From Streptococcus oralis (GTDB lineage Bacteria > Bacillota > Bacilli > Lactobacillales > Streptococcaceae): a DNA stretch of 64,000 nt. Made by a program: the position numbers and the translations under genes. How positions within the stretch are numbered: the stretch's first letter is position 1; every line of letters begins with the position of its first letter. Below the pieces are notes generated by a model that did not search any database, was not told the origin of the DNA, and worked only from the letters and a program-made list of their open reading frames with translations. Of this stretch, positions 18,383 to 21,088 are shown one piece after another. Where the stretch lies: contig NZ_CP097843.1 of the NCBI RefSeq assembly GCF_023611505.1, positions 1,550,001 to 1,614,000 on the forward strand, given 5' to 3'.

Positions 18383-18772
18383 ATGGGAATTGAAGAACAA
18401 CTTGGCGAAATCGTTATCGCCCCACGTGTACTTGAAAAAATCATTGCTATTGCTACTGCAAAAGTAGAGGGTGTACACTCTTTTTCAAACAAATCAGTAT
18501 CTGACACCCTTTCAAAACTTTCTCTCGGCCGTGGCGTTTATCTTAAAAATGTGGACGAAGAACTCACAGCAGATATCTATCTCTACCTTGAGTACGGAGT
18601 AAAAGTTCCTAAGGTAGCTGTTGCTATTCAGAAAGCTGTCAAAGATGCTGTCCGCAACATGGCTGATGTAGAACTCGCTGCTATCAATATCCACGTTGCA
18701 GGTATCGTTCCAGATAAAACACCAAAACCAGAATTGAAAGATCTATTTGACGAGGACTTCCTCAATGACTAG
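18383..18772 (+). CDS. Asp23/Gls24 family envelope stress response protein
   Basis: 129 residues. The family signature is GEIVIAPRVLEKIIAIATAKVEGVHSF (about 8-34), then YLYLEYGVKVPKVAVAIQKAVKDAV and the closing INIHVAGIVPDKTP. Homologues are small soluble proteins at the membrane or associated with alkaline and cell-wall stress. It overlaps the nusB start by 8 bases, as in other streptococci. Confidence 0.94.
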   Translation: MGIEEQLGEIVIAPRVLEKIIAIATAKVEGVHSFSNKSVSDTLSKLSLGRGVYLKNVDEELTADIYLYLEYGVKVPKVAVAIQKAVKDAVRNMADVELAAINIHVAGIVPDKTPKPELKDLFDEDFLND

Positions 18773-19187
18773 TCCACTATTAGAATCTAGACGCCAACTC
18801 CGTAAATGCGCTTTTCAAGCTCTTATGAGCCTTGAGTTCGGTACGGATGTCGAAACTGCTTGTCGTTTCGCCTATACTCATGATCGTGAAGATACGGATG
18901 TGCAACTTCCAGCCTTTTTGACAGAGCTAGTTTCTGGTGTTCAAGCTAAAAAGGAAGAACTAGACAAGCAAATCACACAGCATTTAAAAGCAGGTTGGAC
19001 CATCGAGCGTTTAACACTCGTGGAGAGAAACCTCCTTCGCTTGGGAGTCTTTGAAATCATTTCATTTGACACCCCTCAGCTGGTTGCTGTAAATGAAGCT
19101 ATCGAGCTTGCAAAGGACTTCTCAGATCAAAAATCTGCCCGTTTTATCAATGGACTGCTCAGCCAGTTTGTAACAGAAGAACAGTAA
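18765..19187 (+). CDS. nusB: transcription antitermination protein NusB
   Basis: 140 residues from MTSPLLESRRQLRKCAFQAL; this ATG overlaps the asp23 stop. NusB binds boxA RNA with NusE in rRNA antitermination. The conserved ends are present: RRQLRKCAFQALMSLEFG at the start and VAVNEAIELAKDFSDQKSARFINGLLSQF at the end. Last gene of the operon, followed by a strong palindromic terminator. Confidence 0.96.
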   Translation: MTSPLLESRRQLRKCAFQALMSLEFGTDVETACRFAYTHDREDTDVQLPAFLTELVSGVQAKKEELDKQITQHLKAGWTIERLTLVERNLLRLGVFEIISFDTPQLVAVNEAIELAKDFSDQKSARFINGLLSQFVTEEQ

Positions 19188-19192
19188 ACAGA

Positions 19193-19226
19193 AAAAGTGT
19201 TTGACAGCTGTCAAACACTTTTTTCT
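19193..19226. terminator. bidirectional terminator between nusB and the CPBP gene
   Basis: A perfect inverted repeat AAGTGTTTGACA/TGTCAAACACTT with a 2-base centre, flanked by A-run and T-run, so it can stop transcription from both sides. Confidence 0.85.
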
Positions 19227-19236
19227 TTGCCTTCCA

Positions 19237-19959
19237 CTATCTAAAAAAATGATAATAGATGTAATTGTAAATAAAAATCCAGATAGGTTTTGCATGATTG
19301 AGAAAGTTGAAAAAACTATGACAGAGAATGGTCAATCGTAGATTAGATGTATAGCGATAGACAAGAGCGAAAAAGAGACCAATCAGACTATAATATAATA
19401 AACTAATTGGGTCTCGGTGAGATAGTATCAAATGACTGAGTCCAAAGATAAGACCTGATAAGATGACATCTAAATAATACTTTGACTTAGGAAAGAAGGT
19501 GTTCATAAAATACCCTCTATCAAGAGTCTCCTCAAAAATAGGGCCGATGATTACAGGAAGTACAAAAGATAAGATAGTCGATAAAAAAGTTGGTTGTCCA
19601 TTTGAAAGAACCACGGTAAAATACTCATCATGAATATTCCTATGATTAATCAAATGAGCATAGCGTGCCCAAAAATTACCGAGAATCTGATAAACCACAT
19701 AACCTGCAAATAAGTAGAAGATAGTTGACCAGTTCCAGCTCTTTTTCTCAAAGATAAAGAGCATCTTTTTCTTTTTTAACCACCAAATTAATAGAAAGAA
19801 ATTTCCTACTAATCCCATTGTTAAAATAAGAGAATAAACATCAGCGCCTAACCCTAAAATTATCGTCACATACAATCCAATTGTTTGTGGTAAATAGGTA
19901 GATAGTAAAATAATAAGCAAAAATATTCCAAATTGTCTTAGTTTCTTTGTGTTTCTCAT
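19237..19959 (-). CDS. CPBP-family intramembrane protein, probable bacteriocin immunity or processing factor
   Basis: 240 residues, very hydrophobic, about seven or eight membrane segments. The CPBP (Abi/CAAX protease-like) motifs are intact: EETLDR (Glu143, Glu144, Arg148), FGLSH (His176) and HSFFN (His214, Asn218). In streptococci such genes often accompany bacteriocin peptides and give immunity. Here it starts 18 bases after a double-glycine peptide gene on the same strand. The sequence is visibly AT-richer than its neighbours, which could reflect transfer. It could also process the peptide; neither role is shown. Confidence 0.85.
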   Translation of the reverse strand: MRNTKKLRQFGIFLLIILLSTYLPQTIGLYVTIILGLGADVYSLILTMGLVGNFFLLIWWLKKKKMLFIFEKKSWNWSTIFYLFAGYVVYQILGNFWARYAHLINHRNIHDEYFTVVLSNGQPTFLSTILSFVLPVIIGPIFEETLDRGYFMNTFFPKSKYYLDVILSGLIFGLSHLILSHRDPISLLYYSLIGLFFALVYRYTSNLRLTILCHSFFNFLNHAKPIWIFIYNYIYYHFFR

Positions 19960-19977
19960 CGTACTTTTTTTGAAAGA

Positions 19978-20163
19978 TTATCCTGCTCGGAAACCGTACT
20001 TCCAAGCATCCCTATAAGAATTAAGTGCCCCTTGCCCCATATAGGGAGCAAATTCTCTATAATATAACCATCTACCATAACCATCTTCCCAAACGGCAAG
20101 ACCACCTGAAGTTTGCTCTAAGTCCTCAGTTGAAAGAACTGTAAATGTTTCTGTACCTGTCAT
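19978..20163 (-). CDS. double-glycine leader peptide, bacteriocin-like
   Basis: 61 residues from ATG at 20163, which has an AGAAGG ribosome site 8 bases upstream; a longer GTG start 13 codons earlier has none. The 21-residue leader MTGTETFTVLSTEDLEQTSGG has the double-glycine pattern (L..xDLEx..GG) recognised by peptidase-containing ABC exporters such as ComA or BlpA. The predicted mature part has 40 residues, begins LAVWEDGYGRWLYY, is rich in Tyr, Trp, Gly and Arg and contains no cysteine. I do not recognise the mature peptide. No exporter lies in this window. Confidence 0.8.
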   Translation of the reverse strand: MTGTETFTVLSTEDLEQTSGGLAVWEDGYGRWLYYREFAPYMGQGALNSYRDAWKYGFRAG

Positions 20164-20228
20164 TGCAAGTACCTTCTTAAAAATAGATTGTTGTAGGCTC
20201 ACATTTATAGTATATTTCTTTTTTGTCT

Positions 20229-20257
20229 ATTTTATAGTCTATCTCCTCAACTGTCAA
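20229..20257 (-). promoter_or_regulatory. promoter of the double-glycine peptide operon
   Basis: On the minus strand: -35 TTGACA (20252-20257), 17-base spacer, -10 TAAAAT (20229-20234). The -35 overlaps the proximal half of a direct repeat. Confidence 0.72.
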
Positions 20258-20275
20258 TTTTTCAACCTGAATAGC
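20246..20275 (-). promoter_or_regulatory. direct repeat with ComE/BlpR-type spacing
   Basis: On the minus strand GCTATTCAG (20267-20275), 12 bases, then ACAGTTGAG (20246-20254). Streptococcal competence and bacteriocin response regulators bind 9-base direct repeats with 12-base spacing; the second half fits the ComE consensus and the first is closer to the BlpR form. The overlap with a good -35 is a caveat. Confidence 0.45.
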
Positions 20276-20285
20276 ATTTTCAATA

Positions 20286-20311
20286 AAAAATGAGACCTTT
20301 CTAGTCTCATT
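20286..20311 (-). terminator. terminator of the fatty-acid synthesis cluster
   Basis: On the minus strand ATGAGAC-tagaaag-GTCTCAT followed by TTTTTATTG, 10 bases after the accA stop. Confidence 0.85.
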
Positions 20312-20320
20312 TAGTCATTC

Positions 20321-21088
20321 TTAGTATTTTCTAAAGCGTTGGTAACGTTCTTCGATAAGTTGGTCGAGTGGTAGTTCTTTCAACCTATCTAGTTCTGCAC
20401 GCAATTCATTTTTAACGCAACCTAGCAGTTCTTTACTTGACAGCCCTGCTTCTGAGATTACCTTGTCTACGATTCCCATTTCTAGGAGTTCATGTGAAGT
20501 GATTTTCATCAACTCCGCCGCTTCCATAGCACGACTTCCATCCTTCCAAAGGATAGAGGCAAATCCTTCCGGGCTAAGTACTGCGTAGATTGAGTTTTCT
20601 AACATCCAGACACGGTTAGCTACGGCTAGAGCTAGGGTCCCACCAGATCCACCTTCACCGATAATAATCGCGATGATTGGAACCTTGAGGTCACTCATTT
20701 CCATCAGGTTTCGGGCAATTGCTTCACCTTGTCCACGTTCCTCGGCTCCAACACCTGGGTAAGCACCCGCCGTATTGATAAAGGTCACAACTGGACGACC
20801 AAACTTTTCTGCCTGTTTCATTAGGCGCAAAGCCTTACGATAGCCTTCTGGATGTGGTTGGCCGAAATTCCGTTTGAGGTTGTCATGAAGACTCTTCCCC
20901 TTTTGGATACCGACGACAGTTACTGCTTGGTCACCTAACCAGCCAATTCCACCGATAACCGCACCATCATCACGGAAAGAGCGATCTCCATGCAATTCGA
21001 TAAACTCGTCAAAGATTCCATTGGCAAAATCAAGTGCAGTCAAGCGACTCTGCTCGCGTGCCTCTCTGACTATTTTTGCAATATTCAT
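20321..21088 (-). CDS. accA: acetyl-CoA carboxylase carboxyltransferase subunit alpha
   Basis: 255 residues. With AccD it moves the carboxyl group from biotin to acetyl-CoA. The sequence begins with [26 protein letters not shown] and has the crotonase-fold glycine-rich segments [19 protein letters not shown] (as [16 protein letters not shown], about 105-120) and [13 protein letters not shown]. Shorter than E. coli AccA (319 aa), as usual in streptococci. Last gene of the cluster; overlaps accD by 4 bases. Confidence 0.96.

Follow-up and report, generated by a model that had tools for sequence, protein, structure and literature searches.

BriC and its CPBP neighbour YdiL in Streptococcus oralis: one of several peptide and CPBP cassettes at the accA-nusB site

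In Streptococcus pneumoniae, BriC (spd_0391, sp_0429) is a Gly-Gly peptide induced by ComE, and it promotes late biofilm formation and colonisation (PMC6181422). ComAB was reported to be its major, perhaps not its sole, transporter, and the spacing of the ComE boxes was given in the same paper (PMC6181422). The briC gene is co-transcribed with the fab genes/accA and affects fatty acid synthesis in pneumococcus (PMC8265628). Four further BriC alleles were mentioned in related streptococci in 2018 (PMC6181422), and a review gives the receptor of BriC as unknown (PMC7595303). Killing by BriC is not reported in the extracts of BriC literature found.

The ydiL gene belongs to the pneumococcal ComE regulon as a putative membrane peptidase, with a log2 induction of 5.3 at 3 min (PMC6560143, Table 2), and neither a terminator nor a start site was detected in the briC-ydiL gap (PMC6212715). 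It is a frameshifted pseudogene in D39V (PMC6212715) and is truncated in R6, R6D and D39, where it was left unstudied (PMC6181422); it was set aside in pneumococcal work because of this truncation. R6D, a strain with a truncated ydiL, was used to measure how BriC affects biofilm, and extra briC expression there makes up for the biofilm defect caused by deleting comE; a BriC-leader reporter was secreted by R6, which also carries a truncated ydiL (PMC6181422). A protease review merely lists ydiL (PMC7939560). No paper on the function of ydiL was found in the literature covered, which included extracts of PMC10269507, PMC6004102, PMC6001120 and PMC6328492 and lay outside most subscription journals.

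Two other peptide systems resemble the locus in part. The cab bacteriocins of S. mitis are likewise competence-linked cassettes of variable Gly-Gly peptides, but they are located upstream of comAB and carry SigX boxes, and the CabAB pair was shown to lyse pneumococci (PMC13059744). SilX of S. anginosus is a CAAX-type membrane protein next to a peptide system, but was reported to be unnecessary for immunity and was suggested to process the signal peptide (PMC9298176).

The window is the whole stretch of S. oralis DNA analysed (64,000 nucleotides; contig NZ_CP097843.1, positions 1,550,001 to 1,614,000). The locus and its flanks contain the following features:

18747..19187, plus strand: nusB, convergent flank (ORF; synteny)
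19191..19224, strand not assigned: putative bidirectional terminator-like hairpin in the ydiL/nusB gap
19237..19959, minus strand: ydiL-type CPBP membrane protein (PF02517), 240 aa (ORF; Pfam; motifs)
19978..20163, minus strand: briC, 61-aa double-glycine precursor, mature part LAVWEDGYGRWLYYREFAPYMGQGALNSYRDAWKYGFRAG (ORF; NF033771)
20172..20178, minus strand: putative ribosome binding site AAGAAGG before the briC ATG (read from the sequence)
20229..20257, minus strand: putative sigma-70-like promoter TTGACA-17-TAAAAT (consensus scan, 11/12)
20246..20275, minus strand: predicted ComE site, GCTATTCAG - 12 nt - ACAGTTGAG (two-box scan)
20288..20312, minus strand: putative terminator-like hairpin in the accA/briC gap
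20321..21088, minus strand: accA, upstream flank (ORF; synteny)

The 61-aa precursor consists of a double-glycine leader (MTGTETFTVLSTEDLEQTSGG) and a 40-aa mature part without cysteine, as the sequence-only reading had described it. That reading had also called the peptide unrecognised and perhaps undescribed, a view to be given up on a match to a known family. The HMM search was run, and the NCBIfam equivalog model NF033771 (BriC) matched over model positions 1-60 of 60 with 150.9 bits (cut-off 120); an undescribed peptide was thereby ruled out. The 61-aa peptide is almost certainly BriC, a family already known and with a published role in biofilm formation and colonisation (PMC6181422). From the proposal of a novel bacteriocin or signalling peptide, the type was retained (a secreted, signalling-type Gly-Gly peptide partnered by a CPBP), but not the novelty. 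A Pfam search of the precursor gave no match, and both bacteriocin models applied to it remained below their cut-offs (TIGR01847, 13.1 vs 15.7 bits; TIGR03949, 12.1 vs 21.5 bits). The ORF listed by the program begins further out, with TTG or GTG at 20202; AAGAAGG precedes the ATG at 20163, and this ATG corresponds to position 1 of the BriC model. Two other candidates were rejected: a ComC-type pheromone, the genome's own comC being located elsewhere (G000:2059898-2059984; G000, source genome), and a phage-defence gene, PADLOC giving 0 families for the briC product and for YdiL.

The CPBP gene follows briC after 18 bases, and its product was matched by PF02517 with 67.2 bits (cut-off 22.4). All seven motif residues are present (E143, E144, R148, F172, H176, H214 and N218; EExxxR, FxxxH, HxxxN), so the short gap and the intact motifs had been read correctly before. 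The AlphaFold prediction for YdiL had low confidence (pLDDT 58, 30 sequences). YdiL included, 10 CPBP matches above the Pfam cut-off were found in the genome. S. oralis BriC resembles pneumococcal BriC in exceeding the cut-off of the 60-position model, in its Gly-Gly leader and ComE site and in its position after accA; it differs in being followed by an intact 240-aa CPBP, which is truncated in R6, R6D and D39 (PMC6181422). The ydiL genes agree in operon position and CPBP type (PMC6560143), but the S. oralis copy is full length, unlike the D39V pseudogene (PMC6212715).

The pair had also been described as AT-rich and as standing alone between housekeeping operons. GC content was 0.33-0.37 over the pair (500-base windows) and 0.39-0.49 in the flanks shown, in agreement with the former. 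The latter holds in part: nusB is convergent, but briC begins 157 bp past the accA stop on the same strand, and co-transcription with accA has been published for pneumococcus (PMC8265628).

The predicted ComE site before briC scored 14 of 16, a value that none of 200 base shuffles reached; the promoter of the genome's own comC has the same two-box arrangement (GCGTTTCAG-12-ACAGTTGGG). The consensus letters used in the two-box scan were those that we take to be the ComE consensus. The near-consensus, putative sigma-70-like promoter shares bases with the right ComE box and could provide basal expression without competence. An exporter had been noted as missing, which is correct for the locus but not for the genome. 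The TIGR01193 search of the genome gave 76 matches, one of which was above cut-off (1125.9 bits, model positions 1-707; G000:71302-73419), and the idea of a missing exporter was rejected on account of this one full-length peptidase-type peptide exporter. We take it for ComA, although the 500 bases upstream of this putative comA contain no good ComE site (best 10/16). ComE control of BriC and its export by ComA are regarded as very probable.

Following the published work on pneumococcus, the one species for which CSP induction and the biofilm effect are described, ComE would bind the two-box site during competence and would induce briC and ydiL. A peptidase-type transporter, mainly ComAB, would remove the leader at the Gly-Gly and export the 40-residue peptide, and the exported BriC would alter how neighbouring cells behave (biofilm, membrane lipids). 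YdiL, we infer, may serve as a dedicated partner that protects or desensitises the cell against BriC-like peptides of its own class. The whole explanation, i.e. a ComE-induced briC-ydiL operon of a Mitis-group streptococcus (S. oralis-like by accA/nusB identity) with exported BriC and an immunity-type YdiL, was given a probability of about 60%. For the immunity-type role of YdiL as such, a prediction from sequence comparison, the chances are put slightly below even.

For comparative analyses, 284 Streptococcus genomes (one per species) were surveyed. NF033771 matches were obtained in 30 of these, with 9 above cut-off and many of the others confined to the leader, and YdiL matches (E <= 1e-20) in 70. 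Regions were taken from 67 of the 70 (G148, G280 and G281 left out), and the 11 regions with neither accA nor nusB (L088-L098) were dropped. The 56 genomes analysed, all with accA and/or nusB, include S. mitis, S. oralis, S. infantis and others. A comparison set consisted of 44 more genomes with a NusB at least 83% identical and without a YdiL match at E <= 1e-20. The accA-nusB gap was just 113-323 bp in 36 of these 44 genomes (gaps worked out by eye), and all ten of the 36 short-gap sites whose sequence was read were free of peptide and CPBP. Among the other YdiL-less genomes, accA and nusB were separated by 4.8-6.5 kb in three, placed on different contigs in three and 31 kb apart in one, and one had no listed AccA (also by eye). 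Three states of the accA-nusB site were seen in Mitis-group genomes: empty, filled by one to three CPBP cassettes (some with peptide, some without), or filled by another insert (3 genomes). BriC/YdiL is one of several such CPBP cassettes.

The other insert occupies the 4.8-6.5 kb interval of L150, L151 and L152, in which no CPBP cassettes were seen. It encodes a larger protein, two small proteins and repeated proteins of ~133-140 aa that begin with a hydrophobic stretch. In L152, the sole insert scanned, the larger protein matched the cutinase/lipase family PF01083 with 28.6 bits. The insert presumably resembles TslA, a lipase toxin of the T7SS, together with the immunity genes of that toxin.

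Four CPBP classes were distinguished, with the tandem order C-B-A-D. Class A CPBPs come after BriC, and class B CPBPs come after a different mature peptide (e.g. GMIWLVDDRHWDSPYAYSLATEWSTILTHATRRAYGIGY) on a leader similar to that of BriC; classes C and D are without peptide. In a quick tree of 61 rows (CPBPs shorter than 200 aa, L043_1361, L071, L074 and L050 left out), classes A, C and D each formed a single clade (SH-aLRT 99-100), and class B required two changes. The class B CPBP of L034 and S. oralis YdiL were 34-53% identical in N-terminal windows and 60-88% identical in catalytic ones. A natural chimera, with a B-type N-terminal half and an A-like C-terminal half, was found in L045 together with a B peptide. 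Two class B precursors tested scored below the BriC cut-off of 120 (34.9 and 41.3 bits). The variant precursor of L042 (class E) was also below it (61.3 bits) and passed the bacteriocin leader model TIGR01847 (17.5 vs 15.7). Some of the four further alleles already published may be class B.

A database search with one class B peptide yielded 102 clusters, of which 85 were full length with 65 distinct mature parts; 12 of the 102 were off the leader pattern and 5 more were short. Mosaic mature peptides were observed among these clusters (P0001-P0102), e.g. a class A start with a class B remainder, and suggest recombination of mature-part segments between alleles. The ydiL and briC products are 98-100% identical to those of L033, and the flanking accA and nusB products 90% and 89% identical (protein), which points to an exchange of the cassette between species.

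In total, 73 CPBP ORFs or fragments were recorded, 62 of them at least 225 aa long with all seven motif residues (intact CPBPs). Where both partners were intact, peptide and CPBP were class-matched in 22 of 22 cases (7 A/A, 15 B/B, 0 crossed; the class B peptide of L065, the C-terminal part of which looks frameshifted and the leader of which ends in GS, was counted as intact here). B and A pairs occur in tandem in one genome in L034, L036 and L037, each of them class-matched. The peptide was broken next to 10 of the 62 intact CPBPs (9 B, 1 A) and absent from 30, i.e. from 9 of class A/B and from all 21 of classes C and D. An intact peptide without an intact CPBP was found three times (L035, L042, L043); in L035, an intact briC is located beside a 157-aa YdiL. 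Of the class A/B/E cassettes with exactly one intact partner, 19 had kept the CPBP and 3 the peptide. The more frequent survivor is the CPBP gene, even though it is about four times as long as the peptide gene. Because related genomes share losses, the 19 and 3 losses do not represent 22 independent events. In L059-L062, the class B peptide ends early at the same place, after 12 mature residues, and the CPBP behind it is intact.

A ComE site (score at least 13) was present before 45 of 47 class A/B/E cassettes, and was kept in 8 of the 9 peptide-less intact A/B CPBPs; the ninth is truncated by the end of its contig. The second fragments L042_828 and L086_567 were left out of these ComE-site counts. 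No class C gene had such a site (0/12), and weak sites (12-14) were found before 10 of 11 class D genes.

The mean dN/mean dS ratio of class B CPBPs was 0.26 in the peptide-less or peptide-broken group (14 sequences, including L065) vs 0.20 in the paired group (13); L051, L055 and L056, the peptides of which lack an ATG, were placed in neither group. Class A gave 0.18 for paired CPBPs (7) and 0.20 for those without an intact peptide (3), class C 0.10 (10) and class D 0.17 (10). To judge from the ratio of 0.26, class B CPBPs without an intact peptide are under purifying selection. In the N-terminal half, which is the part that differs between classes, the class B ratio was 0.40 for peptide-less or peptide-broken vs 0.21 for paired CPBPs; this looser N-terminal half fits a lost partner, not continued guarding. 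Distances of class B peptides and CPBPs were not correlated in a Mantel test (r = 0.04, p = 0.33; 17 pairs, with L051, L055, L056 and the short CPBP of L043 included). The N-terminal CPBP half differed by 0.154 within and 0.143 between mature subtypes. L049 and L050 are near-identical.

An immunity-type YdiL, which the sequence-only reading had guessed, is indirectly favoured by the class match in 22 of 22 pairs and the 19 CPBP-only vs 3 peptide-only cassettes, and by the purifying selection that apparently acts without an intact peptide and the ComE site kept in 8 of 9 peptide-less A/B cassettes. Against it stand the intact briC beside a 157-aa YdiL in L035, the absence of class B co-variation (r = 0.04) and the N-terminal half that is looser without a peptide; physical linkage alone could produce the class match, and the losses are not independent across related genomes. 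Since BriC acts in R6D with a truncated ydiL, YdiL is dispensable for BriC action and for survival of the producer. The CPBP family can have a peptide-independent role, as classes C and D are peptide-less in 21 of 21 cases and class C has no ComE site. It was considered whether YdiL itself is not tied to BriC, i.e. whether it is a competence-induced CPBP with an envelope role of its own, like ComM, that only shares the operon. The peptide-less classes C and D would agree with this, as would selection persisting after peptide loss and the lack of fine-scale co-variation in class B. Septal synthesis is slowed by ComM, a protein with one of three CAAX-type motifs (PMC12214887) that is likewise ComE-induced (PMC6560143). 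Such independence is nevertheless rather unlikely in view of the class match of all 22 intact pairs, the three genomes with both classes in tandem, and the comparison of the L034 class B protein with S. oralis YdiL, in which N-terminal windows (34-53%) diverged more than catalytic ones (60-88%).

YdiL could also help to mature, export or sense the peptide, much as SilX was suggested to process SilCR in S. anginosus. Such a function would be consistent with the adjacent and co-induced gene, with its predicted intact catalytic site and with the SilX precedent (PMC9298176). It is judged clearly unlikely, given that a BriC-leader reporter was secreted by R6 and BriC was active in R6D, both truncated-ydiL strains (PMC6181422), and that no intact peptide accompanies 19 of the class A/B CPBPs. 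Very unlikely, finally, is that BriC-type peptides are killing class II bacteriocins and YdiL a classical immunity protein: S. oralis BriC is below the TIGR01847 cut-off, and R6D, in which ydiL is truncated, survives extra briC expression, through which the comE deletion regains its biofilm (PMC6181422). Killing peptides would be compatible with the Gly-Gly leader, the 65 distinct mature parts in 85 full-length clusters on a common leader, the CPBPs standing without peptide, the L042 variant passing TIGR01847, and the three genomes with a lipase-type, toxin-like module and repeated small proteins at accA-nusB.

An immunity-type YdiL could be part of a wider scheme, in which BriC, rather than a lone pheromone, is one allele of a family of ComE-induced peptide/CPBP cassettes at accA-nusB of Mitis-group streptococci, and the CPBP is a class-dedicated immunity or desensitising protein that outlasts the lost peptide and stays under ComE control. 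BriC would then have been domesticated, with its guard gene decaying in pneumococci. This scheme is conceivable, though on the doubtful side. The BriC peptide was already described, and the comparative picture of its CPBP partner is added by this analysis. With strains in which briC and ydiL are both intact, and with class B cassettes, guarding, processing and sensing roles become testable, and so does the derivation of the pneumococcal biofilm signal from a peptide competition system.

In S. pneumoniae, CPBP decay seems to follow several routes: database clusters named after this species include 157-aa and C-terminally altered forms of YdiL. Shortened, internally deleted or C-terminally altered YdiL sequences were observed in P0105, P0119-P0121, P0150, P0168 and P0169, and wherever the source name gives a species (P0120, P0121, P0150 and P0168), it is S. 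pneumoniae.
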